Virus record (IMG/VR): IMGVR_UViG_3300035099_000047
Location: 62,001-126,000 of that record
Direction: 5' to 3' (one strand)
Source of the DNA: a virus
Length of the DNA: 64,000 nt
In this document: in pieces, positions 37,361-63,448 of the stretch
Layout: every line of letters starts with the position of its first letter
Position numbering within the stretch: the stretch's first letter is position 1
Notes under the pieces: generated by a model
The model's database searches: none
The model's input: the letters and a program-made list of their open reading frames with translations, nothing else
What the model was told of the DNA's origin: nothing
Translations under genes and position numbers: made by a program

Positions 37361-37827
37361 TTCAACACTTCCTTCACCATTTTGCCCAAATCCAGCTTCA
37401 CACTAGGCCAATGACTGCGAAATTTCAACCACAAAGGTCTCCAAATTGGTACCGGAGGCAGTTTCAACTCAGCAGAGCCATACTCACGAATCATATGGAG
37501 TTCAGTCCAACTTCTACCACTGGGCTGGTGCACTCCATCTTTGATACTGATCTCAAGGCTCCAACCATTCGCCGTTTGCGTGATAGCAGGTACTACGCAG
37601 CCCAGGTACTGTTCAGGCGATAACAGGTAGGGAGGCTGGGGCAATTGCTGACCATTTTCATCGTACTGAGGCTCTGGCCTCCACTTATCCTTAACGGCTA
37701 GCCGCAACCACAACATCAACTGAGCTTGTATGTTTTCCAGCTCAGTTTTCAATGCCCGATCCACCCGCTGTTGGTAGAACTTGGGATCAAGGTTGAAATG
37801 ACCTATTTGCTTGAACTTGACGGGCAT
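37357..37827 (-). CDS. neck or minor tail protein, 156 aa
   Basis: VDRALKTELENIQAQLMLWLRLAVKDKW is a long N-terminal helix typical of gp10-type or tail-completion proteins, followed by beta segments ending HMIREYGSAELKLPPVP. Position between tail and head modules supports a neck or tail-terminator role. Family not certain. Confidence 0.55.
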   Translation of the reverse strand: MPVKFKQIGHFNLDPKFYQQRVDRALKTELENIQAQLMLWLRLAVKDKWRPEPQYDENGQQLPQPPYLLSPEQYLGCVVPAITQTANGWSLEISIKDGVHQPSGRSWTELHMIREYGSAELKLPPVPIWRPLWLKFRSHWPSVKLDLGKMVKEVLK

Positions 37828-38870
37828 TACAATTCTTCCCAGTCCCCTACAACGTCCTCATCATAGTAGTGCAAAACCACTGTATCCCACATACGGCTTA
37901 TGTAAGGGTGCCGCCTGATAAACTCAGCTACTTGCGGATTGTGATGCCACTTTGTGGTTCTCACCGCATCCGTCACGATAATAACTGCGTCAATTCGATC
38001 GAATATCAATGCAACAGGTACCGCATCAGCCAATCCCATCCCTTCTTTCACATCATAATGAAGAGCTTCCGTCGAATCCCATGCATAACAATGATTAGAA
38101 TCCAACCATGCTCTTACTTCTCCAAAACTCTTGATCCCTTCCAATTCTTCAAAAGTCGGATCTATGTAGAGATTCACTCTGTTGCCAGAATAACTGAGCA
38201 CTTTGATCCTGAATCGCTCTTCGCTCAGGTGCTCAACAGCCCGTTCAAATCTGTTAGCTCTACTTTCCCAGGGACGGCCATGCTCCCAACTGCCAGTTGT
38301 GAGAAATGGATCGCCTAATGGTTTTCCCCATTCCTTCCTTTTCGCAGAACGACCATAATGATACCCTGATTCAGGCTCTCCAGCTGTTTCAGGCCGTTCC
38401 GGTTTCGTGTCCTTTTTCAACCGGTGTTTTTTTCCAATGGCCTTGTACGGGTCAAAATGCTTCAGAATCTCCAAATCCCTAACTGGCATATCCATAAACG
38501 TTCTCAATTCCCCAGACGCTGGGTGGCCCAAGGCTGCTAGTTTTCCCCCTCTTTCGTAGACTATCATAGGGCCTTGATTCAAATACAGTTGGAACATACG
38601 GGCCTGTTGAGGGTTTGGGCGGCGCTTACCAGAGAAAGTTGTAGTTTCTAAGTAACCCAACGCGCGGGCCACAGGTTCCAAATCCTTCCAATTATTTATA
38701 AACCGGTAAGTCATCCCCGGAATCGGAGTTTGACCAATATGAGCGGCAATTGGGGGCAACCGAATTCCCCCTACCATAGAGGCCCCTGCACCCATCATCC
38801 CCAAAAACTTTCGACGGGTTATGCCATCCTCAATCAGCTGATATACTAGCTGTTCAAATGTACTCATCAT
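37827..38870 (-). CDS. capsid-targeted protein with twin-arginine-like motif, 347 aa
   Basis: Start ATGATG at 38870 overlaps the upstream stop. N-terminus MMSTFEQLVYQLIED fits the shared targeting peptide with cleavage after LIE. It is followed by TRRKFLGMMGAGASMVGG, a twin-arginine-type motif with a short hydrophobic stretch. The bulk (about residues 45-347) is soluble; no catalytic motif recognised. Suggests a protein carried in the head that can be exported after injection, which is inference. Confidence 0.6.
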   Translation of the reverse strand: MMSTFEQLVYQLIEDGITRRKFLGMMGAGASMVGGIRLPPIAAHIGQTPIPGMTYRFINNWKDLEPVARALGYLETTTFSGKRRPNPQQARMFQLYLNQGPMIVYERGGKLAALGHPASGELRTFMDMPVRDLEILKHFDPYKAIGKKHRLKKDTKPERPETAGEPESGYHYGRSAKRKEWGKPLGDPFLTTGSWEHGRPWESRANRFERAVEHLSEERFRIKVLSYSGNRVNLYIDPTFEELEGIKSFGEVRAWLDSNHCYAWDSTEALHYDVKEGMGLADAVPVALIFDRIDAVIIVTDAVRTTKWHHNPQVAEFIRRHPYISRMWDTVVLHYYDEDVVGDWEEL

Positions 38871-39073
38871 TTGGCCAACCTGTGCTTTTTGCTCACATGA
38901 CCACAAAACGTGCAGACCTTGCCTTCAGGTCCACCAGGCCCGGTTTGATAGTCTGGAAAGTACCCAACCCTACCACATTTACGACAACGCCGTTTTTGTG
39001 GCTTGGTAGGCACAGAGTCAGCAGGTAGCTTGCCAGCCAACAAGTTTTCAGCCATTTGTTCAAAAGGGTCCAT
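38867..39073 (-). CDS. capsid-targeted zinc-ribbon protein, 68 aa
   Basis: N-terminus MDPFEQMAENLLAG fits the shared peptide but lacks the Glu at the cleavage position. Then CRKCGRVGYFPDYQ and CTFCGHV form a zinc ribbon. The ATG overlaps the preceding gene by 14 nt, the stop of that gene lying inside the TTTTGAA of Phe-Glu. Confidence 0.6.
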   Translation of the reverse strand: MDPFEQMAENLLAGKLPADSVPTKPQKRRCRKCGRVGYFPDYQTGPGGPEGKVCTFCGHVSKKHRLAK

Positions 39074-39863
39074 ACCTTCTCCTCTTTCGGAATACGGCAG
39101 TGATTCTTTTGTAAAAGTCGTTTGCTATTTCCGCGTGGATTTTCTCTACTCTACGGTGGAGTAGCTCGATATCCCGAGATTGCTCAAAACCCGGGTATGA
39201 CCTCCGAAAGTACCATCTATCAGCCGCTGCTTTATGAGCCTCACTAGCCGCATCATTCAACCTTCGGCTCCTAATTCTGTTCTTCAACCCCTTCAAGCTG
39301 AAACATCTAAAAGTGGCATTGTATGCACGTTCGCTCCATTCAATTGCTAAAACTACATAAGGCCAATCATCCTCAAGGGTTTTAGCCAAGTCCGGCGATT
39401 TCTGCTGAATTGATAAAATCTGGGGACGCCAATCGGATCCAACAGCCTTCGCCAATTCCATTGCTTGATGAGCCAAGTGTTCAGCTTGAGCCAACTTAAA
39501 GGTTAACTCAGTTTGGCTCAAAGATTCAACCAGGTCTTCAAACCGCAATTGACGCTGCCGCAATCGGGGAGTTGGTTCACCCTCCGGCAAACCACTCAAT
39601 ATCAATGTCAACTTGTACCGGCCTTGCCCATCTGGTTCACTCCGACTATGGTTGTTCAAAAAGAACGGAGCATTGGTGTGGCGAATAGCATCACGCAGAT
39701 TTCGGATGAAGGTTTTGACAACCATTTCAGGCCACACGTGAAGTCTAGGTATGGCCGTGAACTGGTAAACCCGTTGACCCCGCTGATCTTGGACGCTGGT
39801 CAAAGTCATGCGCTCAAACCAGTCGCGACTAGATCGGTCAACTAACCGGACAAATTCATCCAT
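39060..39863 (-). CDS. hypothetical protein with targeting-like N-terminus, 267 aa
   Basis: The ATG at 39863 shares one base with the upstream stop (TAATG) and gives MDEFVRLVDRSSRDWF; a longer start at 39908 would overlap the neighbour. Charged helical protein, with RRQRQLRFEDLVE-like helices and a basic C-terminus ending RKRRRYGPF. Weakly matches the capsid-targeting pattern. Function unknown. Confidence 0.5.
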   Translation of the reverse strand: MDEFVRLVDRSSRDWFERMTLTSVQDQRGQRVYQFTAIPRLHVWPEMVVKTFIRNLRDAIRHTNAPFFLNNHSRSEPDGQGRYKLTLILSGLPEGEPTPRLRQRQLRFEDLVESLSQTELTFKLAQAEHLAHQAMELAKAVGSDWRPQILSIQQKSPDLAKTLEDDWPYVVLAIEWSERAYNATFRCFSLKGLKNRIRSRRLNDAASEAHKAAADRWYFRRSYPGFEQSRDIELLHRRVEKIHAEIANDFYKRITAVFRKRRRYGPF

Positions 39864-40231
39864 TACATCTGATACCAATAATGCTTGGGCTTCAGCGGAA
39901 AACGCCACACCCAGAACCCTCTACCTATGTATTGGAAATAGCCTCCAACTTCTCTCCTTAGTCTGTTAATAACCAATTCTTGTTCATCAATGTTACCTTT
40001 ATCTTTCAATTCCATACGCAATTCATTTGCTTCTACATCGACCAACAAACTCATTATCTTCGCACGATGTTCCTCCACTATTTGACTGGCCCTGTCCAAG
40101 CTGTTTTCCAAATCAACCAACAACCATTCCATCATCTTGGTTCTAAAATCCTCATAGAACCGCCGCAGATGTGGATTCATTGTTTCCCCACCTTCGATCA
40201 AGTTATTAGTGACTTTTTCAAAGGGACCCAT
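39863..40231 (-). CDS. capsid-targeted helical protein, 122 aa
   Basis: MGPFEKVTNNLIEG ends in LIE|G, a consensus gp21-type cleavage site. The body (LRRFYEDFRTKMMEWLLVDLENSLDRA) is paralogous to the next gene upstream (LRQFYLGYRARVMEWILADVPNVIERM), so the pair arose by duplication. No known fold recognised. Confidence 0.6.
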   Translation of the reverse strand: MGPFEKVTNNLIEGGETMNPHLRRFYEDFRTKMMEWLLVDLENSLDRASQIVEEHRAKIMSLLVDVEANELRMELKDKGNIDEQELVINRLRREVGGYFQYIGRGFWVWRFPLKPKHYWYQM

Positions 40232-40241
40232 AAAATTACAG

Positions 40242-40616
40242 TTAAATCACTTTTGGGAACTCAATAGCAAAAAGCCATTCTATCCACTCCCCTTCCTCCT
40301 CATCAAACAGTACTCCCTCCGTAGCACTCTGTAGTTCGGCTATTAGATCTTCAGGAGATTCACCAGGGAGTATCCTAATTTTCCAACCTACCAAACCTTC
40401 TAAATCTACTTCCCCTTCTTCACACTTTTCCACGAAAGCAACCCGTGCACCATACTTGTTTAGTACCCGGTCCATTCTTTCTATAACATTGGGCACATCC
40501 GCCAATATCCATTCCATCACCCGGGCTCTATAACCAAGGTAAAATTGTCGCAGTTTGGGGTCCCGCAACTCTTCTGCCTCAACCAGCCGGTTTATGGTCT
40601 TTTCAAATCCATTCAT
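40242..40616 (-). CDS. capsid-targeted helical protein, paralogue, 124 aa
   Basis: MNGFEKTINRLVEA ends in LVE|A, the best-consensus cleavage site. Body paralogous to the gene at 39863-40231 in the first 55 residues but different after that, with an acidic C-terminus (GVLFDEEEGEWIEWLF). Divergence outside the duplicated core is strong. Confidence 0.62.
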   Translation of the reverse strand: MNGFEKTINRLVEAEELRDPKLRQFYLGYRARVMEWILADVPNVIERMDRVLNKYGARVAFVEKCEEGEVDLEGLVGWKIRILPGESPEDLIAELQSATEGVLFDEEEGEWIEWLFAIEFPKVI

Positions 40617-40624
40617 GTATCACT

Positions 40625-42187: not shown

Positions 42188-42349
42188 TCATTTGCCCCTA
42201 TGCTTAAAATACTGCACCTGTCTTTCCCGCCTCTCAGCCCCAGCCCGGGTATCGTAGGTGCCCAAGTTCTTGCCCTTTTTGCTGAGCAGACGCCATCTGC
42301 CGTTGGACAAATGGACTATACGTTCCACCAGTTGTTCAAAGCTGTTCAT
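42188..42349 (-). CDS. capsid-targeted small protein, 53 aa
   Basis: Begins MNSFEQLVERIVHL, the shared peptide, but without a Glu at the expected cleavage position. It continues with NGRWRLLSKKGKNLGTYDTRAGAE and ends with a basic tail (QVQYFKHRGK). The SKKGKxLGTYDT core resembles short domains in phage-related hypothetical proteins. Nothing else is known. Confidence 0.55.
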   Translation of the reverse strand: MNSFEQLVERIVHLSNGRWRLLSKKGKNLGTYDTRAGAERRERQVQYFKHRGK

Positions 42350-43040: not shown

Positions 43041-43310
43041 TTACACTATAGGCACGTCGCGAGTGCCTACCCGCACGCTAGACGGCTCTCGCTGTAACCG
43101 GTCAACTATTTCAAGAGCGCGCATAAGTAACGATTTGATACGTTCCAACAACTCACTCAACCCCCGACCGCGGAACTCGGGCACGCGGGCAGTCAATTGA
43201 CTAACCTTGGCTGCCATTACACTAACTTGATTAGCCAAATCAGTGAGGTCTTCTTGCAAGCAAAGGTCCTCATTCAGCAGCTTCTCCGCTTCGGCCTCTA
43301 TAGAATCCAT
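43041..43310 (-). CDS. capsid-targeted coiled-coil protein, 89 aa
   Basis: MDSIEAEAEKLLNED contains LNE|D. The rest is almost entirely heptad-like helix (LANQVSVMAAKVSQLTARV, LLERIKSLLMRALEIVDRL). DNA-binding or scaffold-like behaviour is conceivable; unknown function. Confidence 0.58.
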   Translation of the reverse strand: MDSIEAEAEKLLNEDLCLQEDLTDLANQVSVMAAKVSQLTARVPEFRGRGLSELLERIKSLLMRALEIVDRLQREPSSVRVGTRDVPIV

Positions 43311-43311
43311 A

Positions 43312-43623
43312 TCACCTTGCTCCCAGAAAACGCAGTCCGGCCTCCCGCTCCAAATATCCTAGGGACGTCAGTGCTGCTTGTACTTGTTGAACAGCAGACG
43401 AAAAATACTGATCTCCTTTGCCCTTTTGGAAATGAGCCAAATTCAAATGGGCATTGTACAAATACTTGTAAGCACTGGCAATCCTCTTGGCTACATTGTC
43501 GGGAACTGCAGACTGGACTGCAGCACCAGAACTCGGCCTCCGTCCAGTGGACTGGGGTGGAGGTGGAGGGACCTGACCAGCTTCTCCTAACAAGCGATCA
43601 ACTGCCTCTAAAAAACTATCCAT
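43312..43623 (-). CDS. capsid-targeted hypothetical protein, 103 aa
   Basis: ATG at 43623 has AGGAGTG upstream; a GTG at 43632 is less likely. MDSFLEAVDRLLGEA ends in LGE|A. A Pro-rich linker (PPPPPQSTGRRPSSG) leads to a helical C-terminal half (AYKYLYNAHLNLAHF). Function unknown. Confidence 0.6.
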   Translation of the reverse strand: MDSFLEAVDRLLGEAGQVPPPPPQSTGRRPSSGAAVQSAVPDNVAKRIASAYKYLYNAHLNLAHFQKGKGDQYFSSAVQQVQAALTSLGYLEREAGLRFLGAR

Positions 43624-43650: not shown

Positions 43651-43992
43651 TCAAAATCGCTCATAGGGCTCTTCCTCCACTTCTTCCTCCTCATCGCGCC
43701 CTGGAGGACCTTCTTTGGTAACCCACCCCTGATTCCGCACAAATTCATCATCTGGAGTCTGTGGGAATAGTTGGCCTTTAATAGGTACAGGAAGCTGATT
43801 CTTCACGTGTTCCAAGAAAGTCAGGAACCGAGCCAACAACCGACCCTTGATGGCCGTAAGGTGTCGATCGCTCCACCGCAGCAGTACTGCCTCCAGATCC
43901 CCAACACTGTATTCAGGCTCTGGAGTTGTGGTGAGTTCGTGTTCTGGCTGCTCAGCAAGCAACTGACGGACTGTCTGTTCAAATTGGTCCAT
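43651..43992 (-). CDS. capsid-targeted hypothetical protein, 113 aa
   Basis: MDQFEQTVRQLLAEQ contains LAE|Q. Body: LEAVLLRWSDRHLTAIKGRLLARF helices, then a C-terminal acidic tail (DEEEEVEEEPYERF). Unknown function. Confidence 0.6.
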   Translation of the reverse strand: MDQFEQTVRQLLAEQPEHELTTTPEPEYSVGDLEAVLLRWSDRHLTAIKGRLLARFLTFLEHVKNQLPVPIKGQLFPQTPDDEFVRNQGWVTKEGPPGRDEEEEVEEEPYERF

Positions 43993-44080: not shown

Positions 44081-44470
44081 TCAAGCATTCTCTCTATTCA
44101 AAACAACTTCCTCAACTAGGAGGGCTAACTCTTCTGGCGAAAGTTGATTTCTGAACCAATACACTCCGACTACCACCTCAAGTGTTGAGGAATGATATGA
44201 TTTGGGCCAATGATACGCATTTGGGTGCCGAATGCGAGTTTTACCACTTGGAGTTGTGTAATACCAAGATTCTCCGAACAACTGAGGCGGATCATCGTTA
44301 AACAAAAACCTCACGGGGCAAGTGTTATGAGCTCTCACCGCTTTACGAGCTAAACGTCTTGCTTTCAAAAAGGCTCTGGCTCTTCGGCCTTCTTCTGCTG
44401 GAAAAAATGGCAAACCAGGTCCACCCTGTTCTACCAAATACTCAACAGCACTTTTAAACAAGCGACTCAT
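44081..44470 (-). CDS. capsid-targeted hypothetical protein, 129 aa
   Basis: MSRLFKSAVEYLVEQ contains LVE|Q. A basic helix follows (GRRARAFLKARRLARKAVRAH), then a beta-rich part (ESWYYTTPSGKTRIRHPN). ATGA overlap with the gene upstream. Function unknown; basic middle would suit nucleic acid binding. Confidence 0.58.
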   Translation of the reverse strand: MSRLFKSAVEYLVEQGGPGLPFFPAEEGRRARAFLKARRLARKAVRAHNTCPVRFLFNDDPPQLFGESWYYTTPSGKTRIRHPNAYHWPKSYHSSTLEVVVGVYWFRNQLSPEELALLVEEVVLNRENA

Positions 44471-44844
44471 TCAAAAGACTCCCACTCATCAGCCCAATCT
44501 TCTGGTTCTATCATTTGACGTATGTGATGCAAGGCGGCGTCTGCCTCTACTTCATTATCAAATATCAAGTTGATATATCCAGGTGGATCGTGTTCTTCTT
44601 GAAACACAAAGCCCAAATCCACTAGGTATGCAATGGCTTCTCTGGCTCTGTAGCTATCCCGAAAGCCAAACTCAACCCTCTCCCAACGGTACTCCATGGG
44701 TTCGGATTCCTCGGGTTCAGGCGGTTTTGGTTCTGTGGCTCGATAGGGTTGAGTCCCATAATGGAAACCATTGCCTCCCAGGGGGAACCCGTGGTGAGGT
44801 AGGTCCTCCACCAAACGGTGGACCTGGTACTCGAATGGGCCCAT
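44467..44844 (-). CDS. capsid-targeted hypothetical protein, 125 aa
   Basis: MGPFEYQVHRLVED contains LVE|D. Low-complexity Pro/Glu linker, then a ferredoxin-like or RRM-like alpha/beta half (RAREAIAYLVDLGFVF; GYINLIFDNEVEADAALHHI). No residue-level function recognised. Confidence 0.58.
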   Translation of the reverse strand: MGPFEYQVHRLVEDLPHHGFPLGGNGFHYGTQPYRATEPKPPEPEESEPMEYRWERVEFGFRDSYRAREAIAYLVDLGFVFQEEHDPPGYINLIFDNEVEADAALHHIRQMIEPEDWADEWESFE

Positions 44845-47125: not shown

Positions 47126-47126
47126 A

Positions 47127-48407: not shown

Positions 48408-48579
48408 GTTCGTTTCTCGCCGAGGCCCCATCTCTTGAAAAGTAAAGGGGAACGATTTCTTCTTCATTTTGAAGCATTTTTGCGGGAACCCCACCATAAG
48501 GGACCCTTTTTACCCACTCAGTCTCAAATGGGCTAGCAAGACTGAATCCGGAGGAATTCACCATCACGCTCATTTCTGA

Positions 48580-53400: not shown

Positions 53401-54891
53401 TTACACTAAGGTCCCAACAGCGTAGAACCTGTTGTTGATGACTTTTTGTGCTGAACGTGTCAAAAGTCCACGGCGGCTCACAAAGTCATCCAACGTGATG
53501 GTGGGCGTGCTGATCAATCCCTGATACACAGCATGCACATAGCCAGTATCCAGGAAGTTGCCTCCCTTGCCACCCATCAGCCACTCATTGGTTGGATACG
53601 CCGAATCCTTGTAAACCTCCCAATCTCCAAGGGTTCCAACCTTCCTAATACCTGCCACCCCACTCACAGGCGGACTCTTAACAAACGCAGGCACCAAGGT
53701 CTCGACGATGTTGGCCACATTCATGCCCACCACCAACCAGGAACCTTGCATCCGCTGAGTCTGTTGGAAAATCGTGTTCGACGTTTCAGTAAAAGCGTCG
53801 ATCAAGATTTCCTTGTGGTCCTTATAGCTGACACCAACCGGCGGAGTCGGATCAAACGTCACTGGGCTGGCTGCATTGTATGCAATAGCCCGCAGGTGCC
53901 GAATGATCTTTTCGTTGATCTCCTGGCTGATACGATTGGTGGCCAGCGTGACCAACTCCGTTTCGGCCACAATGCCGTGGACAGCCAGCAGATCCTGTTC
54001 GGCTTCAAGGCTCCACCTGAACCTTAGTTTATTCGGCCTAGTGACTACCGGGCTGGAGGTCAGCTGGATCTCCAATTCCGGAATCAAGTCACTTGCCTCC
54101 ATGTCATACTCATAGGTGGCTGTAACAGCGTCGCTATCACTATGACCTGCCGTGAATACCACAGCGTAAACACCTGTGGCATAGTTGACAGTATTGGTGT
54201 AAGTGGCATCTGGTGTGCCTACATTACCAATCAAATTCCCGTTGCCATCATCCGTGATGTGATAGGTTCCATCGGTGATATCCACTGTGCCTGGCCTTAC
54301 TGGGTAATAACTCAGTGTACCCTTAATTTTGTCGGTGCTAGTAACACCCAGAGCCTCATTCTCCACCACCTCATCAGTGTAGTGGTAACTGCGCTCCGGG
54401 CCAGCCTGGGCATCATAGATCTTAGTGCCCTTGGTGAGTGTACCCTTAGTACGGCCAGCCACGGCGTCCATGTAAAAGACTAGGCCGGTCGGGGCAGGCA
54501 GGGGCTGCACGCTGACCAAATCGGCAGCCACCAGGTTAGCAAACACCATGCGGATGATGGGGAACACGTATTTTTCATACGTACCCACTTGCAAGGTGCG
54601 GGTGGCTTCATCCAATCGGTCATAGTACCGCTTGGCATTTTCCAACAGAGTGGCCACCAATGCCCGACGATACGGGTCCTCAATACCTTCCATGAAGTTG
54701 ATGGAGCCTTCCTTGCCCCAATGACGCAGCCGATTGGCGGGCATATTGCCCCAGCTCTCGGCCAACACCTGTCCTCGATTCAACATGTCCTCCCAAGTTT
54801 CGTACATCGAGGACTCTTCAATTGCATGTCGATTACCCATGACTAAGATCTCCAACGAACGGTGCAGTTGATACCATGAGAGTTCGGTCAA
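53401..54891 (-). CDS. major capsid protein, gp23-like, 496 aa
   Basis: VFPIIRMVFANLVAADLVSVQPLPAPTGLVFYMD is the gp23 signature. The C-terminal part (QGSWLVVGMNVANIVETLVPAFV, WEVYKDSAYPTNEWLMGGKG) fits the HK97-fold core. Residues about 205-275 hold an inserted beta domain like that in the J-type baseplate protein (DDGNGNLIGNVGTPDATYTNTVNYATG). LAE|S at residues 43-46 is a candidate prohead protease site for a short propeptide. Followed by module D. Confidence 0.9.
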   Translation of the reverse strand: MTELSWYQLHRSLEILVMGNRHAIEESSMYETWEDMLNRGQVLAESWGNMPANRLRHWGKEGSINFMEGIEDPYRRALVATLLENAKRYYDRLDEATRTLQVGTYEKYVFPIIRMVFANLVAADLVSVQPLPAPTGLVFYMDAVAGRTKGTLTKGTKIYDAQAGPERSYHYTDEVVENEALGVTSTDKIKGTLSYYPVRPGTVDITDGTYHITDDGNGNLIGNVGTPDATYTNTVNYATGVYAVVFTAGHSDSDAVTATYEYDMEASDLIPELEIQLTSSPVVTRPNKLRFRWSLEAEQDLLAVHGIVAETELVTLATNRISQEINEKIIRHLRAIAYNAASPVTFDPTPPVGVSYKDHKEILIDAFTETSNTIFQQTQRMQGSWLVVGMNVANIVETLVPAFVKSPPVSGVAGIRKVGTLGDWEVYKDSAYPTNEWLMGGKGGNFLDTGYVHAVYQGLISTPTITLDDFVSRRGLLTRSAQKVINNRFYAVGTLV

Positions 54892-54922: not shown

Positions 54923-56485
54923 TTACTTGACTTTTCTAACCAGGCTCTCCATCAAATTGGTCGGCTTGGCAACACCCGCACGGGCTGGTCTCGCTGAGGA
55001 GCCTCTGGCTTCAGTCAGCGGGGGCAGGTCGGAGGGGTAGTCCTTGCGACCACTCATAATCGGCTGGATGAAACCTTCAACCAGCTGTTTGACTTGCTTA
55101 ACCGTATGGCACTCACTCAATTGTTTCTCAATGGGCTTGAGAGCAGGGGCGTGGTTCATTAACGACTCCACGTATTGGGCCACCTGTTCACCTCGGTATC
55201 GCTTTACAGTGGCTTCTAACAGCTTCAAGCTGGCCTCAGCCCGCTTAAAAGCTTCAGCCAATTGACCCCTGAGCTGTTTAATAGTGCGCTCGGCCATTCG
55301 CTTGTTGGCCCTGCTCTTGGTCACCAGTGTCTCACCCAACTGAATGGCCACGTGATACCTTTCCTGCAGTGATCGGTCGCGGCGGTAGGCGCGCTCCATC
55401 ACCCGAGCAGCTGCATCATCAGTTGGGGTGATGTCTTCCTTTTTCTCTTTTTCCTTTTTGGCTTTTTCCTCAGCCGCAATGCATTCCTCAGCTTCACGCA
55501 TCCGGCGAATAGCTCGTGTGATTTCTTCTCCACGATTGGTCAGCTGACCCCGCAAGTGGGCCACATCCGAACTAAACTCACTTTCGGTAATGGAGCCCAA
55601 CCCGGCCAACGTGTCATTGACCTTTTGAGCGTGCTCCAATAGCCCTTCCAATGTGATGTCCTTACCTCCCAGGTATTGACCTGAACTCTCCACAACCACT
55701 CGGGCCCGCGCAGTGCGGTCCGAAGACTCTTTCAATTGAACCGGTGTAGTCATTGTCTTGTTCTCCAAAATGGGTACCAGAAATATCCTCGATCCGTTGT
55801 TGGTTTGTAGGCTTTCCACAGGGCGAGTTGTTGCTCCCATTACGCTTGGGATGTAAACGTGATCAAACGTGTCTAACACATAGTCGCTAGCCTCTACGAT
55901 TTCGTCTCCGTTCTCGTTACGAGTGCTACCAGAACCTCGGCTACTCACCGCAACAGGCACTCCAACGTCAAAATACTCCCTCAAAATTTGACCAGCTGGA
56001 GTATTGAAAATCAGATGGGTCACATAAATCTTACCATCCTTGCGTTGAACATCTTCTACCAAGTGGCTTAGCCCCAAGTTGTTATGTCCGTGCAACTTGG
56101 TGTTGCCACTTTCAGGGTGCTCCAACTCCCCCAACACACTACGTTCCCGCAACCTGCGACGAAAGGTTCCATCCTCAGACAACACCCGATCCCACAAGGT
56201 TGAGGGATAAATGCGGCCATTCTGATTCTTGAGATTTTCCACTTGGCCTGGACCCGTCACCCGCAGCCGTTTGTTATGGCTCAATAGCTCTTGCAGGATC
56301 TGATCCTTGCTACCCCGCCAGTGTTCAATCAGCTGTTCATTTTTCTCCTGCTCCAACAGCCGATTAAATTCCTCCCAACGGGGCATCAACACACTTTCCT
56401 TCAAACCCTCCGAAGTGACCCACTCCTTTTGCCACTGGTCTGGGGGTACTGTCATTGTTTCTATTAGCAATTTTCGTTCAGCCAT
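54923..56485 (-). CDS. prohead protease (gp21-type) fused to scaffold-like tail, 520 aa
   Basis: Residues about 85-225: NQNGRIYPSTLWDRVL, LGELEHPE (candidate His 123), SHLVEDVQRKDGKIYVTHLI, FDVGVPVAVSSRGSGS (candidate Ser 181 or 182), DTFDHVYIPSV. This is the gp21-type serine protease pattern. The C-terminal half (from about 250) is a charged coiled coil (EEKAKKEKEKKED, RTIKQLRGQLAEAFKRAEASLK) like gp22 scaffolds, containing several LxE sites (LAE|A, LVE|G, LTE|A). T4 keeps these as two genes. The enzyme should process the capsid and the targeted proteins. Confidence 0.82.
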   Translation of the reverse strand: MAERKLLIETMTVPPDQWQKEWVTSEGLKESVLMPRWEEFNRLLEQEKNEQLIEHWRGSKDQILQELLSHNKRLRVTGPGQVENLKNQNGRIYPSTLWDRVLSEDGTFRRRLRERSVLGELEHPESGNTKLHGHNNLGLSHLVEDVQRKDGKIYVTHLIFNTPAGQILREYFDVGVPVAVSSRGSGSTRNENGDEIVEASDYVLDTFDHVYIPSVMGATTRPVESLQTNNGSRIFLVPILENKTMTTPVQLKESSDRTARARVVVESSGQYLGGKDITLEGLLEHAQKVNDTLAGLGSITESEFSSDVAHLRGQLTNRGEEITRAIRRMREAEECIAAEEKAKKEKEKKEDITPTDDAAARVMERAYRRDRSLQERYHVAIQLGETLVTKSRANKRMAERTIKQLRGQLAEAFKRAEASLKLLEATVKRYRGEQVAQYVESLMNHAPALKPIEKQLSECHTVKQVKQLVEGFIQPIMSGRKDYPSDLPPLTEARGSSARPARAGVAKPTNLMESLVRKVK

Positions 56486-56775
56486 TTGTTATCCTCCGAA
56501 CGAAGGCCCCAACTTGAAGGTCCAGTTGGTTTGTCTACTGTGTAAGTGTGTTTCATCCATATGTGATACTTTTCCAACAGTTTCATCAACAATTCAAACT
56601 TGCCACGAGGTATAAACACCTCTCTGGCTGGCATTTCCGGGTGCACTCCCGTATTACGAATCAGGACACCAGATTTATAATCATGACTGGGCAAGTACAA
56701 TTCCAATCCACCCTCGCGGGCGATCAAATGATGCTCGTTTAACAATTGCTCAGCGGCTTCTTCAAAACAGTTCAT
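56464..56775 (-). CDS. capsid-targeted hypothetical protein, 103 aa
   Basis: MNCFEEAAEQLLNEH contains LNE|H. Body: LELYLPSHDYKSGVLIRNTG, and a helix with KFELLMKLLEKYHIWMK. Overlaps the next gene upstream by 14 nt through the Phe-Glu junction, and its end overlaps the protease start by 22 nt. Confidence 0.6.
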   Translation of the reverse strand: MNCFEEAAEQLLNEHHLIAREGGLELYLPSHDYKSGVLIRNTGVHPEMPAREVFIPRGKFELLMKLLEKYHIWMKHTYTVDKPTGPSSWGLRSEDNKWLNENC

Positions 56776-57091
56776 TCGTACCTAGAACCCAGGTGTACTG
56801 ATCCAATGGCCCCACCAAATAACTAGTGTCTTCTGGCAAAGGTTCAATTGAGTAATTGTAACCACTCCTCAAATCAACTCGGATTGCATACGTATTCCAT
56901 ACTCGATCAAGTATCCTGTCAATCACGTGGGGCAACAGCTTCCAACACCTCAGCAGGCAACGGGCCTCATCCAACGTGACCAGGTAAGTATCTCCATTTG
57001 GATAACAAAGGGTCAAATCAACTTCACGAACCCCACGGTAAATGTCAAGGGTACGCAGCTGCGGAATGTACGGTGGAGTTAGCTTGGGCAT
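56762..57091 (-). CDS. hypothetical protein, 109 aa
   Basis: YIPQLRTLDIYRGVREVDLTL, then YLVTLDEARCLLRCW; beta-rich. No targeting peptide. Function unknown. TGA/ATG junction with the upstream gene is overlapping. Confidence 0.52.
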   Translation of the reverse strand: MPKLTPPYIPQLRTLDIYRGVREVDLTLCYPNGDTYLVTLDEARCLLRCWKLLPHVIDRILDRVWNTYAIRVDLRSGYNYSIEPLPEDTSYLVGPLDQYTWVLGTNELF

Positions 57092-57493: not shown

Positions 57494-57766
57494 TCAGCTC
57501 CTCTGGTAAATACCAGTATGGAATGCACCCATGCCACTCTTACCTTTCTGAACAAGAGCCACTGCTTGCTCCAACTCGTCATCCGTCATCATCGACATCG
57601 CAGCGGAGTCAAAACCCTTCGACCTCAAAAACTCAACTGATCGCTTGCGTTGCCGCATAGCAGGAGACAGTTGACCCGGTGCTTGTGGCCCCGAGGCACG
57701 TTGCCCAGGAGGTGAACCTTGACCCTGATTACTAAGTTGATTCACGGCTTCTTCAAAAGATCCCAT
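57494..57766 (-). CDS. capsid-targeted protein, 90 aa
   Basis: MGSFEEAVNQLSNQG fits the pattern without Glu at the site. Gly/Pro/Gln linker, then RQRKRSVEFLRSKGFDSAAM and MMTDDELEQAVALVQKGK helices. Unknown function. Confidence 0.55.
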   Translation of the reverse strand: MGSFEEAVNQLSNQGQGSPPGQRASGPQAPGQLSPAMRQRKRSVEFLRSKGFDSAAMSMMTDDELEQAVALVQKGKSGMGAFHTGIYQRS

Positions 57767-57809: not shown

Positions 57810-58268
57810 TTACCAACCACTCAAGGACCACAGGAACTGTCGAACTTCCTCAGATTTCAACGCCCTATCATGGAGGTCAACCACTATTTTCAAATCCGGT
57901 GTAGCCTGAAGGTAGGGTTTACCATTTTTCAACACCACGTATATCACACCATAATGTTTAAGGTACGTATTAGCGTATTTCTCATCTCTGGTATCCCAAT
58001 AAGTTCGCCTGCCTATCGTCGCCAAGCTCTCTGGATCAGTTACGTGTAAAAACACGTAGGGGCCCTTTTGCCTTTCCACCTTTACCCCGGGCAGAGTGGT
58101 CAAATCCTCTCTAGGAGCACCACGCCTTGGCAATCTTCTCGGCATGTTTTCTGGCTCATCAAGGGCTGGGCTGCTTTCAAATTCATCTTCAAACTCCGCG
58201 GGCTCAGGGGGTTCAAAAAACGGACCTGTTTCTAACAAACGGTCAACAGCTTGTTCAAAAATGTCCAT
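57810..58268 (-). CDS. capsid-targeted protein with shared linker, 152 aa
   Basis: MDIFEQAVDRLLETG (LLE|T). The acidic linker PEPAEFEDEFESSPALDEPE is almost identical to one in the protein at 61215-61649. C-terminal half VERQKGPYVFLHVTDPESL, YANTYLKHYGVIYVVLKNGKPYLQ is paralogous to the middle of the protein at 47127-48407. A mosaic of shared parts; function unknown. Confidence 0.6.
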   Translation of the reverse strand: MDIFEQAVDRLLETGPFFEPPEPAEFEDEFESSPALDEPENMPRRLPRRGAPREDLTTLPGVKVERQKGPYVFLHVTDPESLATIGRRTYWDTRDEKYANTYLKHYGVIYVVLKNGKPYLQATPDLKIVVDLHDRALKSEEVRQFLWSLSGW

Positions 58269-59397: not shown

Positions 59398-59400
59398 TGA

Positions 59401-59793
59401 TTAGTCCTCTTCATCATCAAAGTAACCAGGTCGGTCCTTAGCCCAAGCCTCAAATGCTTCCCAAGCAGATTGCATTTCTGCTCTGAATTGTTCTTCTAAC
59501 ATAGCCACCATCTCCTCTGGTTTCAACGAATCACTATATTCTGGATTGGTCCAATGTTCAAAGGAACTCTTCAGGCGCTCAAATACAATAAGAGACAGGC
59601 TCTCCTTTTCCATTGGACCACGAGGGTTCAAGCTGTTGTCAGGTCTCCCAAGGTGAACCCTCTTGTATTGAGGAGGCGGATGACCAAACTGCTTATAAAA
59701 ATTATGAAAATGCTTGTAACGAGGATCATCAGGATCCATAAACTTTGCTTCTGCTACTATCTTATTTACAGCCTGTTCAAACCGGTCCATCAC
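59401..59793 (-). CDS. capsid-targeted hypothetical protein, 130 aa
   Basis: MMDRFEQAVNKIVAEA contains VAE|A. Body: KHFHNFYKQFGHPPPQYKRVHLG, then LSLIVFERLKSSFEHW. Acidic end (YFDDEED). ATGA overlap with the large upstream protein. Confidence 0.6.
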   Translation of the reverse strand: MMDRFEQAVNKIVAEAKFMDPDDPRYKHFHNFYKQFGHPPPQYKRVHLGRPDNSLNPRGPMEKESLSLIVFERLKSSFEHWTNPEYSDSLKPEEMVAMLEEQFRAEMQSAWEAFEAWAKDRPGYFDDEED

Positions 59794-61208
59794 CCAATCT
59801 CCAACAGGCGATCAATCAACTTATTGGCCTCGACCTCTAATGATTCCATTCCCCGCCTGCGCCGAAAGTATGCTGGCACACCTGGACCTTCAGGCTCCTC
59901 TTCCTCCATGCCTTCCGGTTCTTCAGGTTCCTCTCCACCTCCGGGCTCTTCCTCTTCACCTTCCTCAGGCTCTTCTGGTCCGTACTCACCCCAATCCTCT
60001 TCGCCCTCTTCGGGCTCTTCCTCACCCTCTTCAGGCGCAGGGATCTCAGCCCCGAACTCCTCACCTTCTTCGCCTTCTTCCCCCTCTTCACCAGGAGGTG
60101 GACCTTGACCGGGCACACTTACCAATTGACCCCCACCCCCAGGCAGACCGGTAGCCGGATTGATGCCTTGCATACCACCACCGCTCATGCCTCTTCCTCC
60201 ACCGGCCCCGCCTGCAGCAGCCTGGGGTTCACCTGGGGATTGACCGGGCTGACCTGGCTGACCAGGCTGACCCGGTTGAGGCAGTCCCTCTGGCCCGTAG
60301 CCCGGTCCACCCGTACCCAACACATCAATCTCTTGCTCCGTACTCAAAAACACCCAACAACCATCCTCAGGCCTTTGAATAACTTGGGCTCCAGGCATGA
60401 TTTGACGAAAGCTGGCCAACAACCTCCCCGCTTTGTCTTCACCCATGCTGGGGTCAAAGAACACCAGAATGGCATCCAGATCTTGCTCAATTGACGCCGT
60501 CAAATAATAGTCCAACAAGTCCAACACATTGATACGCAATACCAAAGCGTTGAAGAACTCGTCCATAGATGGCCGGTACTTCAATGGTTGATTGTACGCC
60601 GCTGCCGTGGGATCGAGCAATCCAACCCCTTCTTGCATACGGGCTGTACCTTTTATCAGCCGGTCCACTAATTGTTCCACTGTAGGTGAAACACGGTTGA
60701 TACGAGCAATCAAATAATCCAACGCTTGGTCAAAAGCTAGCCTCGAAGCTCGTGTCACATCGTCCAAAGCTATACCATACCATTTATGAATCGCCCTTTT
60801 AGCCTTTGCCCAATCCACTCCATAACTCTTTTCCCCAGTGAGCACAGCAACCTGTGCTTTCAAAGTCTCCAATTCTTCTGGATCCAATGCAACCCTTTTT
60901 TGCAAACTTTCTACTGGGCTACCACGCTCCACCGGTCGTGGAGGACTGGGATTAACTTGTTCTGGGGCTGGACGGGCTTCAGGCGGACGGCTTTCGTCTG
61001 GAGGGCTTTGCTTAGCTTGTTTAGCTTGCAACAGCTTTTCCTTGACCCGATGAGCCAAATCACTTTTCAAAAAGTCCTCAGCTGGTTGCAACCGACTCAA
61101 CCGGTCCCGGCTCACAATAGCTGCTCGTTCCGGTCCCTCATCCCGCATGGGTGTGGGATCCGGTACCGGGGCCTCAGACAACAGGTGTTCGATGAGCTGG
61201 TTAATCAC
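59790..61208 (-). CDS. capsid-targeted protein with collagen-like and acidic low-complexity regions, 472 aa
   Basis: MINQLIEHLLSEA ends in LSE|A. Residues about 110-300 contain helices (WAKAKRAIHKWYGIALDDV, LVLRINVLDLLDYYLTASI) and ILVFFDPSMGEDKAGRLLASF. A collagen-like PGQPGQPGQPGQSPG and a Gly-rich stretch lead to a long Glu/Gly/Pro run (EEGEEGEEGEE). The C-terminus (FRRRRGMESLEVEANKLIDRLLEIG) again resembles a targeting helix. Might act as scaffold or core; inferred. Confidence 0.58.
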   Translation of the reverse strand: MINQLIEHLLSEAPVPDPTPMRDEGPERAAIVSRDRLSRLQPAEDFLKSDLAHRVKEKLLQAKQAKQSPPDESRPPEARPAPEQVNPSPPRPVERGSPVESLQKRVALDPEELETLKAQVAVLTGEKSYGVDWAKAKRAIHKWYGIALDDVTRASRLAFDQALDYLIARINRVSPTVEQLVDRLIKGTARMQEGVGLLDPTAAAYNQPLKYRPSMDEFFNALVLRINVLDLLDYYLTASIEQDLDAILVFFDPSMGEDKAGRLLASFRQIMPGAQVIQRPEDGCWVFLSTEQEIDVLGTGGPGYGPEGLPQPGQPGQPGQPGQSPGEPQAAAGGAGGGRGMSGGGMQGINPATGLPGGGGQLVSVPGQGPPPGEEGEEGEEGEEFGAEIPAPEEGEEEPEEGEEDWGEYGPEEPEEGEEEEPGGGEEPEEPEGMEEEEPEGPGVPAYFRRRRGMESLEVEANKLIDRLLEIG

Positions 61209-61214
61209 AGCACC

Positions 61215-61649
61215 TTAATCCTTCCAAGGTTCTTCTTCATACAGATCAACATTAAGCAATTTCATCAATCTGGAGATCTTACCATAGTCTTTTGGTGAGT
61301 AGTAAAAAGTGTGCATACCATGAGAATACTCATATTTGTAACCCACATGATTGATCTGAAATGCCGTAGCTATCATTTGGGCATTCTTGCTACTTCCCAC
61401 TCCGACATAACCCGGATCCAAAGCAAACCTCTTAGGCAACTTGTCTGGAGTTGGTTCAGTCTCTGGCTCGTCAAGAGCTGGGTTGCTTTCAAATTCATCT
61501 TCAAACTCCGCGGGTTCAGGAGGTAACGACCTCAAAGGTTGGTCTGGATCACGCCCAGGATAGCGCTTTCCTCCACTACCCCAACCCTCCATCTGTTCAT
61601 CTATTGATTCATCCAATAGATGATGAAGAACTTTTTCAAACGGTCCCAC
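61215..61649 (-). CDS. capsid-targeted protein with shared linker, 144 aa
   Basis: GTG at 61649, 3 nt after the upstream stop, gives VGPFEKVLHHLLDES with LDE|S. The linker PEPAEFEDEFESNPALDEPE repeats that of 57810-58268. C-terminal half NAQMIATAFQINHVGYKYEYSHGMHTF unrelated. Function unknown. Confidence 0.6.
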   Translation of the reverse strand: MGPFEKVLHHLLDESIDEQMEGWGSGGKRYPGRDPDQPLRSLPPEPAEFEDEFESNPALDEPETEPTPDKLPKRFALDPGYVGVGSSKNAQMIATAFQINHVGYKYEYSHGMHTFYYSPKDYGKISRLMKLLNVDLYEEEPWKD

Positions 61650-61651
61650 TG

Positions 61652-61882
61652 TTACCACCCTTGAGATTCAGCTTCCAACCGATCTAACCACTCCTCAGCT
61701 TCGGCTTTGCTTGCAAAAGTAGCATAGCAAAAACCACTTTCTTCCCCAAACACTCCCCAAGCTGCTGTATCAAAATCCCATTCCACGTACATTTCCTCAC
61801 GGTATTTGGGATGGTCTGGATACTTGGGATCCATTGTATATTCAACCAACAGATGCTTTACCTGTTGCTCAAATGGTCCCAT
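61652..61882 (-). CDS. capsid-targeted small protein, 76 aa
   Basis: MGPFEQQVKHLLVEY has LVE|Y. Body FDTAAWGVFGEESGFCYATFASKAEAEEWLDRL is a small alpha/beta domain. Good example of the family with a short payload. Confidence 0.6.
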   Translation of the reverse strand: MGPFEQQVKHLLVEYTMDPKYPDHPKYREEMYVEWDFDTAAWGVFGEESGFCYATFASKAEAEEWLDRLEAESQGW

Positions 61883-61889
61883 ATCATCA

Positions 61890-62174
61890 CTAATCTGGAA
61901 AAGCCTTTTTCAACAAATCACGCTGGTGCTCTTTGGGCAACTCTCGGAAGAATTCCAAAGACTGATTTATGTAAGGGTTGGCCGATCGATATCTCCCTTT
62001 CATTACGATTTCCAAAACAAATGCTCTTTCATTCAAGGCCGAAGTTAAAGCACTAGAAGTACGGTCATAATAGGCCCAAACTCTTTTCAAAGACTCAACA
62101 ACCCATTCTTCCCAACCCATGATAGGATTGTTCCAAATGCTGAGATTTTCGACAGCTTCTTGAAACAAACCCAC
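61890..62174 (-). CDS. capsid-targeted helical protein, GTG start, 94 aa
   Basis: GTG at 62174 just after the upstream stop gives VGLFQEAVENLSI. Body has LEFFRELPKEHQRDLLKKAF, paralogous to the C-terminus of the gene at 62856. Unknown function. Confidence 0.55.
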   Translation of the reverse strand: MGLFQEAVENLSIWNNPIMGWEEWVVESLKRVWAYYDRTSSALTSALNERAFVLEIVMKGRYRSANPYINQSLEFFRELPKEHQRDLLKKAFPD

Positions 62175-62176
62175 CT

Positions 62177-62869
62177 TCACCACTCCCAAGCTTTGCGTTC
62201 TTCCTCCCTATCCAATATCTCTTCGCCCCACGCACGCCATATCTCATTGCCAACCAAGCTAGGCACCCGTCGACCTTCTACAGCAGCATAGTTGAACACC
62301 AACCCCTCCGTGTGAGGATTCACAGCATAGTAAATCTCAATACGGGCATAATCTCCATCCACCACCTGGTCCAAAGTGCCTGCTACATCCGCTGGTATCT
62401 GAACATCCGCTTGCATACCCCGCTCTTCCCACCACACTCCATCTTCATCCCGGTATACATCTATCAAAAACTGATTTTCCAACTTGCCCAGATACCCACA
62501 CACCAGCTGCTTAGGGTCTTGACCCTCCAACAACTCATCTACCAAAGCTTTTTCTCTTTGACCACCATCCACCAAACCATTCAAACGCTCCACCAAGTGG
62601 CGATACCTATCCACCAAGCTATCGGCCACACTTGCGCCGTTGAAGAGCTTGGAGTATATTTGGTCTTGGCACTCGTGAATCCGCTTCAGCGTGCTGCAAA
62701 ACAAATTGTTGCGAACGTAATCGTTGTTTGGCCTAATGAGTTGCTTTTCCACTGCAGCCTTCACTACAGCCTCATATACCTCCAAGTCCCGAGACAATTC
62801 AGGACGTGGACCCAACTGGGCCAATGCGTTGCGCCAAACAGGGAGTTGAACCGGTTCAGTCATAATCAA
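62177..62869 (-). CDS. hypothetical protein, 230 aa
   Basis: Helical N-terminal half (LSRDLEVYEAVVKAAVEKQL; LVDRYRHLVERLNGLVDGG), then DVYRDEDGVWWEE and a final NEIWRAWGEEILDREEERKAWEW. No targeting peptide. Overlaps the upstream gene by 14 nt. Function unknown. Confidence 0.52.
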   Translation of the reverse strand: MIMTEPVQLPVWRNALAQLGPRPELSRDLEVYEAVVKAAVEKQLIRPNNDYVRNNLFCSTLKRIHECQDQIYSKLFNGASVADSLVDRYRHLVERLNGLVDGGQREKALVDELLEGQDPKQLVCGYLGKLENQFLIDVYRDEDGVWWEERGMQADVQIPADVAGTLDQVVDGDYARIEIYYAVNPHTEGLVFNYAAVEGRRVPSLVGNEIWRAWGEEILDREEERKAWEW

Positions 62870-63176
62870 ACCACTCCGAAGGGATTGCCCTGTTCAATAA
62901 CGAAACTTGGTGTCCTGGAGGCAACTCCCGGTAAAGTTGCAAAGCTTCCAAATCGGACGAAATTTTATCCATTTCCATCTTGGTAACCACATCATGAACC
63001 ACTTTCCTAACTTTTTCAACTTTAGAAAGTTTATCTGATACGTGGTCCCAAGCATCTCCAACCATTATATCGTCAATGAGGCCCCAAACTTCTTGCAAAG
63101 CTCCAATCACTCGATCTTCCCAAAAAAATTGTTGGGATTCCGCAAGCTGGTTTACACCTTGTTCAAAACTATTCAT
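62856..63176 (-). CDS. capsid-targeted helical protein, 106 aa
   Basis: ATG at 63176 with GAGG upstream gives MNSFEQGVNQLAES, LAE|S. Body: VIGALQEVWGLIDDIM, KLSKVEKVRKVVHDVVTKM and LQLYRELPPGHQVSLLNRAIP, paralogous to 61890-62174. Confidence 0.6.
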   Translation of the reverse strand: MNSFEQGVNQLAESQQFFWEDRVIGALQEVWGLIDDIMVGDAWDHVSDKLSKVEKVRKVVHDVVTKMEMDKISSDLEALQLYRELPPGHQVSLLNRAIPSEWFDYD

Positions 63177-63181
63177 ATTCC

Positions 63182-63448
63182 TCACTTGAACAATGGGCTC
63201 GCAGAAGCCCTGCGCACATGTTGCACTGCCCGCCTCAAATGATTTATCACTCGTTGACGTTCAAAGTCCCAAGCAGGCCCTACCTCTGGGTCTCGCATAC
63301 GGCCAATCCGTTGTACCATCCCTTCAATCTCATGCAACAATTCGTGAATATCATCCAACCTCGCTTCTTCAAGCGGTTGTCGAGCGCTAGGGCCCATCAG
63401 TTGCTCAACCAAATAGTGAATATCACTTGTTAATGCTAGCTTGGCCAT
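63182..63448 (-). CDS. hypothetical protein with targeting-like N-terminus, 88 aa
   Basis: ATG at 63448 gives MAKLALTSDIHYLVEQ with LVE|Q; a longer start at 63493 would overlap the neighbour further. Basic, helical (QRVINHLRRAVQHVRRA). Overlaps the upstream gene by 26 nt in another frame. Function unknown. Confidence 0.5.
   Translation of the reverse strand: MAKLALTSDIHYLVEQLMGPSARQPLEEARLDDIHELLHEIEGMVQRIGRMRDPEVGPAWDFERQRVINHLRRAVQHVRRASASPLFK

Follow-up and report, generated by a model that had tools for sequence, protein, structure and literature searches.

Thirty-two to 38 proteins of a metagenomic phage share an N-terminal peptide resembling T4-type capsid-targeting sequences

According to the accessible parts of the papers cited here, the internal proteins (IPs) of phage T4 are basic proteins with N-terminal capsid-targeting sequences (CTSs) or propeptides of 10–19 residues; 10 residues of IPIII suffice, with residues 4 and 7 serving mainly in targeting and residues 8 and 10 in processing (PMC9026906). 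GmrSD restriction systems are blocked by IP1, IP2 and IP3, each acting on a different one, and the signal has led to the recognition of at least ten IPs across T-even relatives (PMC12373910); on strain ECOR17, T4 needs IPIII (PMC9391042). Here we analysed 64,000 nucleotides (the window; positions 62001–126000) of the 172,227-base virus record IMGVR_UViG_3300035099_000047, in which many genes encode otherwise largely unrelated proteins that begin with one short peptide, hereafter the label. An initial annotation of the window had likened the peptide to a capsid-targeting signal that ends in a cut site of gp21 type; this description is supported by the concentration of the label among head genes and by a gp21-type protease in the same phage. 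We consider it quite likely that the shared N terminus is a T4-type CTS on internal proteins, which would lose it to a protease inside the prohead and then probably enter the next host with the DNA. Coordinates are those of the window unless marked ‘record’.

A 13-position profile, seeded with N termini like those quoted in the initial annotation and then iterated, has the consensus M-x-x-F-E-x-x-V-x-x-L-x-E and identifies a strong label (at least 9 bits) in 32 of the 251 minus-strand genes of the whole record. When internal segments were given equal tries in 200 repeats, the mean number of matches was 1.83 (maximum 5) with proteins shorter than 70 amino acids skipped, and 2.88 (maximum 7) across all 251 proteins; four strong label genes encode proteins below that length. 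Six weaker label genes of the record were added by hand, so that tallies of 38 comprise 32 strong and 6 weaker genes. Motif-blind clustering of proteins of at least 70 amino acids, with paralogs discarded, recovered a 20-gene set (mean 3.5 and maximum 5 in 20 controls), and the seed and 12 members that were inspected all carry the label motif (13/13). The minus strand holds 251 of the 255 genes called in the record; gene calls and starts come from a simple script of our own, and single starts may be wrong. All eleven peptides that had been quoted as one set were found at their minus-strand starts (a GTG start at 61208); ten are strong members, whereas MINQLIEHLLSEA (61208) is only loosely similar and falls under the profile threshold. 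The estimate of about 34 label proteins in the window was too high, the count being 26 (22 strong and 4 weaker). Another 12 (10 strong, 2 weaker) lie outside it, at record 4.0–5.0, 128.0–129.4, 149.5–153.8 and 171 kb.

The label genes cluster with the head genes. Strong labels occur in 22 of the 49 genes of the head region (record 99.8–126 kb; the borders of the head, tail and replication regions are our own), in none of the 39 tail-region genes and in none of the 95 genes at record 5–62 kb (Fisher P = 3.5e-15 for the head region against the two empty ones). We treat record 5–62 kb as the replication region because it holds genes for a clamp loader, RecA-like, SbcC/D-like and DnaB-like proteins, a uracil-DNA glycosylase and a gp32-like protein; the matches for DnaB and gp32 fall just under the Pfam cut-off. 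The initial annotation had proposed that its reading would fail if the peptide were as frequent in early genes, and the replication region gives no such refutation. Both the clustering with head genes and the absence from replication genes fit a T4-type CTS. Elsewhere, strong labels are found in 3/8 genes at record 0–5 kb, 3/24 at 126–144 kb, 3/22 at 144–158 kb and 1/18 at 158–172 kb. The tail sheath gene lies at 33911–35470 and a portal gene of T4 type at record 168.3–170.8 kb; an exact direct terminal repeat of 15–399 bases was looked for in the record and none was found.

Aligned on the aromatic residue 4 (F in 36/38 labels, I in 2/38), the 38 peptides are most conserved at F4, V8 (30/38) and L11 (31/38), and also at E5 (26/38) and E13 (20/38). 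Column information is 1.42 bits at residue 13, 1.17 at 14, 0.85 at 15, 0.39 at 16 and 0.33–0.95 beyond, compared with a mean of 0.43 and a maximum of 0.89 in random columns; conservation fades near residues 13–14, and the column at residue 18 (0.95 bits) slightly exceeds the random maximum, perhaps through paralogs. A [LIVMC]-x-E triplet stands near the label end in 29/38 proteins, finishing at residue 13 in 20 and at residue 14 in 9, so that the hydrophobic-x-E signature survives a one-residue register shift; the background is 11% of internal 9-residue windows of label proteins. Because the profile itself includes the LxE positions, we repeated the choice of genes on positions 2–10 only. Among the 28 genes chosen in this way (score of at least 16), 23 have the [LIVMC]xE triplet with its glutamate at residue 13 or 14, against 4% at random internal positions of low-scoring genes. 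The residue that follows the label glutamate is D in 8 cases, A in 6, Q in 4, S and E in 3 each, G in 2, and H, T and Y in 1 each. A short N-terminal peptide on unrelated mature proteins and a hydrophobic-x-E ending, both hallmarks of a T4-type CTS, are thus present. Identity with the T4 CTS sequence is not, as the consensus differs, which limits the term ‘homologous’ but not ‘works like’.

The prohead protease that had been placed at 54923–56485 is confirmed by its matches to PF03420 and phrog_207, and the S77 (gp21) score of 37.8 bits exceeds the Pfam gathering cut-off of 27; its C-terminal extension is possibly a scaffold part. With a gp23-type capsid protein and a T4-type portal, the phage encodes the head proteins expected alongside a T4-type CTS. 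Candidate cut sites in the capsid protein are LLE67/N and LDE78/A (a slash marks a predicted cut), two of five [LIVM]xE triplets in the first 110 residues, and both are matched in the nearest relative, the L009 contig described below (LLE74 and MDE85). An LxE falls within residues 64–85 of the capsid protein in this phage (67/78), L009 (74/85), T4 (65), Sphingomonas (Sphingobacterium) phage PAU (64) and Maribacter phage Colly_1 (66). The T4 site, LTE65/A, has a similar residue number and is not aligned to those of this phage; the shared zone is weak support because the proteins are not all aligned and 3–5 such triplets occur per first 110 residues. N-terminal sequencing in PAU left 520 of the 585 residues in the mature protein (PMC5646251, accessible part), one residue off the 521 expected from LME64/N in the 585-residue presumed capsid protein.

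Comparison with the closest relatives indicates a higher turnover for label genes than for the head genes that flank them. The nearest relative in IMG/VR is L009, a 27.8-kb contig with a capsid protein 65% identical to that of the window; its head and tail genes are collinear, and it has homologs of 11/28 non-CTS genes of record 99.8–131 kb but of 0/38 CTS proteins. The 472-amino-acid protein at 59790–61208 has a partial homolog there, and clustering revealed no shared N-terminal set among the contig’s 33 genes of tested size. A 4.7-kb contig of a Gloeocapsa metagenome-assembled genome (MAG; CALGKL010000295.1) encodes a capsid protein 80% identical to that of the window, and a homolog of 56762–57091 (59% identical) followed directly by a protease homolog (64%). 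The CTS gene that lies between these two neighbours in the window, 56464–56775, has no match on this contig, and no stretch of it reaches 11 bits with the label profile. The MAG contig is possibly a hint at the host, or possibly a binning error; neither the tail sheath nor the winged-helix family (below) nor the label motif turned up in searches of that MAG. Scans with the capsid protein returned only L009 among viral contigs and, by alignment, only the MAG contig among genome contigs; the protease scan found no relatives, and the tail-sheath scan gave 43 distant loci, of which the contigs of 10, with L009, were taken into the clustering survey. A pattern scan of IMG/VR for peptide-coding DNA returned 40 stretches; in the contig parts covered, each had at most one start of at least 15 bits, and they were taken as chance matches. 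Absence of the label elsewhere is weakly shown, because the pattern is codon-specific and would fit only some of the phage’s own genes, and because contigs were partly covered.

The initial annotation held that the label proteins diverge completely behind the shared peptide. This is nearly so, but the mature parts of the 38 proteins sort into 24 groups, and among these are four small paralogous families: a winged-helix-like family, a five-member family (61890 and 62856; record 128420, 128761 and 129083) and two pairs, the rest being singletons (one match that joins groups spans only 15 residues, E = 0.001). Median mature length is 93 amino acids and median pI 5.5. The winged-helix family was modelled from 10 aligned sequences (mean pLDDT 79); in the Protein Data Bank (PDB) the model best matches DNA-binding proteins of the PadR and MarR types (best E = 1.9e-3, probability 1.0, TM about 0.5–0.6), with none at E of 0.001 or below. 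The sole strong Pfam match among the 38 is DUF5662 (record 149511–150092, E = 2.6e-28); six other Pfam families match weakly, one member each (E 0.0007–0.01), as does one protein in PHROGs (0.0045). In the aligned DUF5662 homologs of Bacillus phage Eldridge and Lysinibacillus phage LysYB1 the first dozen residues are absent, so the label looks added to an older DUF5662 protein; the homologs of SP-15 and RHph_N46 have longer N termini of their own, outside that alignment. Two ideas about cargo function were dropped. The CTS protein at record 128014–128397 had suggested a T4 Alt-like ADP-ribosyltransferase from motifs seen by eye, but it had no Pfam, PHROG or PDB match, no relative in viral contigs and an unusable structure model (pLDDT 42). 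The protein at record 150790–152151, considered as an ATP-grasp enzyme, had no Pfam match over the cut-off and no PHROG or phage match; its one PDB sequence match (E = 0.0093) is a hypothetical protein.

One cargo protein appears to carry two signals. The product of 37827–38870 starts with MMSTFEQLVYQLIE and continues, directly behind the expected cut, with DGITRRKFLGMMGAGA, which by eye resembles a twin-arginine (Tat) signal. It also contains a second, internal label of 29.0 bits, whereas the best match in 50 shuffles of all proteins scored 21.5. Cutting at both sites would turn the product of this one gene into two internal proteins and would expose the export signal of the first. A C-terminal label copy occurs at residues 210–222 of the product of record 129560–130234 (L006:5560-6234, minus strand; 19.4 bits); shuffles average 0.02 matches of at least 18 bits, and one of the 50 reached the 21.5 bits. 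Similar sequences were seen by eye at the C termini of 59790–61208 and L008:2472-4280 (minus strand). T4 Alt is processed C-terminally by gp21 (PMC9026906, accessible part).

We surveyed 23 records with an S77-type protease (this record, 11 viral contigs, several of them short fragments, and 11 named phages) by the same motif-blind clustering. The largest non-paralogous N-terminal sets are those of this record (20), PAU (18; null maximum 5), Colly_1 (11; 4) and Aeromonas phage 65 (11; 6), followed by G003 (8; 4), SP-15, GXN1 and KVP40 (5 each) and T4, LIS04, PhiW-14, G002 and G004 (4 each), with 1–3 in the other ten. T4, with 4 genes against a null maximum of 6, is not detectable, so the method misses small sets. 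For GXN1 the profile gives 8 genes (null maximum 4), although four of these are visibly alike, and clustering gives 5 (null maximum 6); we do not count it as support. The PAU peptide, of the type MK-T-(L/I)-x-x-L-(Y/F)-E/(A/S), for example MKTISKLYE/AKLNEA, differs from that of this phage. It was found in 18 genes by clustering (two unrelated-looking by eye) and 20 by profile, with LYE, IYE or LFE in 20/20, and 12 of the 20 lie at 100.2–113.7 kb, around the S77 protease at 111.5 kb. Colly_1, which has an S77 protease and a gp23-type capsid protein, uses another peptide, MKxxxIKxLIE/S or (I/L)-K-x-(L/M)-(I/V)-E/S, in 11 genes by clustering and 13 by profile ([LM][IV]E in 10/13); these are spread over the genome, and all 7 of the 13 with annotation examined are labelled ‘hypothetical protein’. 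The LxE tallies of both phages are descriptive only, because the profiles include those positions. The arsenal that the initial annotation called unusually large is thus large but not unmatched, and we reject the idea that it has no equal, the PAU and Colly_1 sets being comparable. Papers that use the term ‘capsid targeting sequence’ treat, going by titles and abstract openings, T4, P1, SPN3US, P22 and T4-based vaccines or vectors. A literature search, thin on subscription journals, turned up no account of such CTS sets for PAU, Colly_1 or similar phages, and the accessible parts of the Colly_1 paper (PMC8776804) and the PAU papers (PMC5646251 and PMC7824862) do not mention a CTS set. The G003 contig also has seven adjacent genes with T4-like N termini of the MKTFKEYLEE type (L117:8750-14503, plus strand; one HAD-like by eye), another internal-protein cluster.

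Under the CTS reading, the roughly 13-residue helix, with its aromatic residue 4 and hydrophobic residues 8 and 11, would bind the prohead core and draw the protein in; the gp21-type protease would release the mature protein inside the head by cutting behind residue 13 or 14, the E of (L/I/V)-x-E; and the mature proteins, packed with DNA, would probably be delivered to the next host at infection. There, as with T4 IPI–IPIII and Alt, they would most likely neutralize first-line defences or redirect host functions. Targeting and cleavage by the label seem to us very likely on the sequence evidence and injection probable, and we somewhat favour anti-defence or takeover roles for most of the proteins. 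Several observations weigh against the CTS reading. The [LIVMC]xE triplet is absent from the expected place in 9/38 labels, and genes scoring below 4 on positions 2–10 carry it more often than random positions do (22/202, or 11%, against 4%), an excess that may reflect diverged labels or chance. Among strong label genes, 10/32 lie beyond the head region, three of them at record 4.0–5.0 kb, to which no region was assigned. Mature parts with a pI above 8 number 13/38 and those below 6 number 21/38, unlike the IPs of T4, which are described as basic. No gp22 scaffold homolog is among the genes identified, and label genes are absent from the 27.8 kb and 4.7 kb of closest relatives examined. Aeromonas phage 65 has a shared N terminus of the MKxRFKSEE type (L244–L255; 11 genes by clustering, 16 by profile) without an LxE, so a shared N terminus alone is no proof of a CTS.

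The last case, the nine labels lacking LxE and the ten strong genes beyond the head region would also fit an uncut N-terminal helix that docks proteins to another late structure or partner, such as the neck, a membrane or a replication compartment, the LxE being part of the helix. We judge this quite improbable, as the triplet is kept through the register shift at the point where conservation fades, a gp21-family protease gene lies nearby and no tail-region gene has the label. The label might instead be a true capsid-targeting signal whose cargo consists mostly of prohead core parts that act in assembly, like T4 gp67, gp68 and in part IPIII; many label genes are interleaved with head genes, and T4 IPIII mutants have head-assembly defects (PMC9026906, accessible part). 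The 24 mature groups, the lack of any of the 38 in L009 despite its conserved head-gene order, which is accessory-like turnover, and cargo such as DUF5662, the winged-helix family and the protein with the Tat-like signal all make this unlikely, although it is the least so of the alternatives. That recombination spreads one mobile gene-start cassette, with a peptide of no function, is very unlikely. Codons do depart from genome usage at residues 4–6, where A/T-ending ones are favoured (Phe 4, P = 0.006; Glu 5, P = 0.016; Lys 6, P = 0.045), and at Val 8 (P = 0.036) and Leu 12 (P = 0.002), but A/T-ending codons are commonly preferred at gene starts, and 9 of the 11 tests at residues 7–13 follow genome usage (P above 0.05) with synonymous codons mixed. 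Among the 17 genes whose F stands exactly at residue 4, the most frequent base reaches at most 71% at any of the upstream positions −36 to −1. The codon and upstream results argue against a copied cassette, and selection appears, from these sequences, to act on the peptide and not on the DNA. Chance, gene calling or paralogy could in principle contribute, given starts from a simple script of which some are uncertain; the equal-tries controls, the motif-blind, paralog-free clustering and the Fisher test make such an artefact extremely improbable.

If the CTS reading is correct, the first 13 residues are a label that marks packaged, probably injected phage genes from sequence alone; it would give 32–38 candidates in this phage, only one of which (DUF5662) strongly matches a known family, open a way to further anti-defence proteins and reveal how diverse the protein load of a single phage head can be. 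Because PAU and Colly_1 have recorded hosts, the rule that a private shared N terminus ending in LxE denotes a packaged protein is testable. More tentatively, and with somewhat less than even expectation, we suggest that a private, lineage-specific N-terminal capsid-loading code is a general delivery system of phages with gp21 proteases, re-invented in T4, PAU, Colly_1 and this phage and carrying tens of effectors. It would here include a relay cargo, in which removal of the CTS exposes the twin-arginine signal, the host re-exports the injected protein to its periplasm and a cut at the second, internal CTS releases a second effector.

Features of the window are collected in Table 1. Further observations concern other genes of the record. 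A domain of the type YGxLYIVxKNGKPFxQ, without a Pfam match, appears by eye to be common to 47127–48497, 57810–58268 and L008:2472-4280 (all minus strand), one of which carries a CTS. A dual-specificity-phosphatase-like gene amid CTS genes (L007:6089-6502, minus strand; PF00782, E = 5.2e-8, just under the cut-off; MEVFEMVLGHLW) possibly has a diverged label. OrfB/TnpB-like genes occur at L002:18782-19957, L003:2692-3738 and L007:8156-9340 (minus strand); the last has a CTS gene on either side, and mobile elements may therefore contribute to the movement of cargo. Intein splicing domains were found in five minus-strand genes (6461–8110, 8165–10705, 44849–47152, L008:4345-6825 and L002:747-3791, the last under the Pfam cut-off), including the portal and a radical-SAM gene. 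Within that of 44849–47152 (767 amino acids; domain at residues 155–639) lie C2H2 zinc fingers and a region matching HNH weakly, an unusual composition for an intein. A cysteine-rich protein with CQxGCQ-like repeats (16222–17370, minus strand) is flanked by tail-region genes.

Table 1. Label genes and associated head genes in the window. Next residue, residue after the predicted cut; profile, match to the label profile; aa, amino acids.
Positions	Strand	Feature	Label peptide	Next residue	Basis
37827–38870	-	CTS protein; Tat-like signal directly after cut; second internal CTS copy	MMSTFEQLVYQLIE	D	Profile
38217–38255	-	Internal CTS copy, residues 206–218 of 37827–38870 product	NRFERAVEHLSEE		29.0 bits
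38736–38828	-	Tat-like signal at about residues 15–45 of 37827–38870 product: TRRKFLG and a hydrophobic stretch			By eye
38867–39073	-	CTS protein, no LxE	MDPFEQMAENLLAG		Profile
39060–39863	-	Weaker CTS candidate, no LxE	MDEFVRLVDRSSRD		Profile
39863–40231	-	CTS protein	MGPFEKVTNNLIE	G	Profile
40242–40616	-	CTS protein, paralog of 39863–40231	MNGFEKTINRLVE	A	Profile
42188–42349	-	CTS protein, no LxE	MNSFEQLVERIVHL		Profile
43041–43310	-	CTS protein	MDSIEAEAEKLLNE	D	Profile
43312–43623	-	CTS protein	MDSFLEAVDRLLGE	A	Profile
43651–43992	-	CTS protein	MDQFEQTVRQLLAE	Q	Profile
44081–44470	-	Weaker CTS candidate	MSRLFKSAVEYLVE	Q	Profile
44467–44844	-	CTS protein	MGPFEYQVHRLVE	D	Profile
48580–48933	-	CTS protein, winged-helix family, start uncertain	MVRFRRMVEQLVE	A	Profile
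48994–50091	-	CTS protein, 365 aa	MGTFENLVDQLYE	A	Profile
50224–50415	-	CTS protein, winged-helix family, short	MGIFEKAVERLCE	D	Profile
50402–50716	-	CTS protein, winged-helix family, modelled, start uncertain	MSVNAGGFEQVVHQLVE	A	Profile and structure model
51162–51350	-	CTS protein	MNSFERAVLQLLSE	E	Profile
51337–51660	-	Weaker CTS candidate, no LxE	MGGFKEAADDVLSYY		Below 4 bits in profile, added by eye
51688–51984	-	CTS protein, winged-helix family	MNRFEKAVERICE	D	Profile
53401–54840	-	gp23-type major capsid protein (better start; longer start 54891)			PF07068 E = 1.8e-46 from 54891 start
54923–56485	-	gp21-type prohead protease, 520 aa, long C-terminal extension			PF03420 E = 1.9e-9; phrog_207 head maturation protease E = 7.4e-29
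56464–56775	-	CTS protein, directly upstream of protease gene	MNCFEEAAEQLLNE	H	Profile
57494–57766	-	CTS protein, no LxE	MGSFEEAVNQLSNQ		Profile
57810–58268	-	CTS protein	MDIFEQAVDRLLE	T	Profile
59401–59790	-	CTS protein	MDRFEQAVNKIVAE	A	Profile
59790–61208	-	Acidic head-region protein, 472 aa, loose N-terminal match, not counted as CTS	MINQLIEHLLSE	A	Under profile threshold
61215–61649	-	CTS protein	(V)GPFEKVLHHLLDE	S	Profile
61652–61882	-	CTS protein	MGPFEQQVKHLLVE	Y	Profile
61890–62189	-	Weaker CTS candidate, no LxE	(MGVVKV)GLFQEAVENLSIW		Profile
62856–63176	-	CTS protein	MNSFEQGVNQLAE	S	Profile

The kind of system proposed here is already known from the T4 internal proteins; distinctive here are the size of the set, the private sequence of the label, a putative polyprotein with two signals and the occurrence of comparable sets in further phages. 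Like T4 IPI–IPIII and Alt, the proteins of this phage combine one short N-terminal peptide with otherwise unrelated sequences, an aromatic residue 4 and a terminal hydrophobic-x-E, and both phages have gp21-, gp23- and gp20-type head genes and fast-changing accessory cargo. The label of this phage differs in being about one helical turn longer (E at 13–14 rather than 10) and private in sequence, and it occurs on 32–38 genes, compared with three IPs and Alt in T4; the cargo is more often acidic than basic, and one member has two CTS copies and a Tat-like signal. The ejection proteins of the giant phages SPN3US and phiKZ resemble our proposal in that many head-packaged proteins are cut by a prohead protease and injected, but the SPN3US propeptides are mostly much longer than the 10–20 residues of T4 (one is of 20), and the accessible part of the source describes no shared short peptide (PMC5694885). 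The Dar proteins of P1 are likewise injected and act against restriction, with an N-terminal packaging signal in DarB, but their N termini have no consensus according to the accessible part of PMC9024508, whereas the proteins of this phage share one label.

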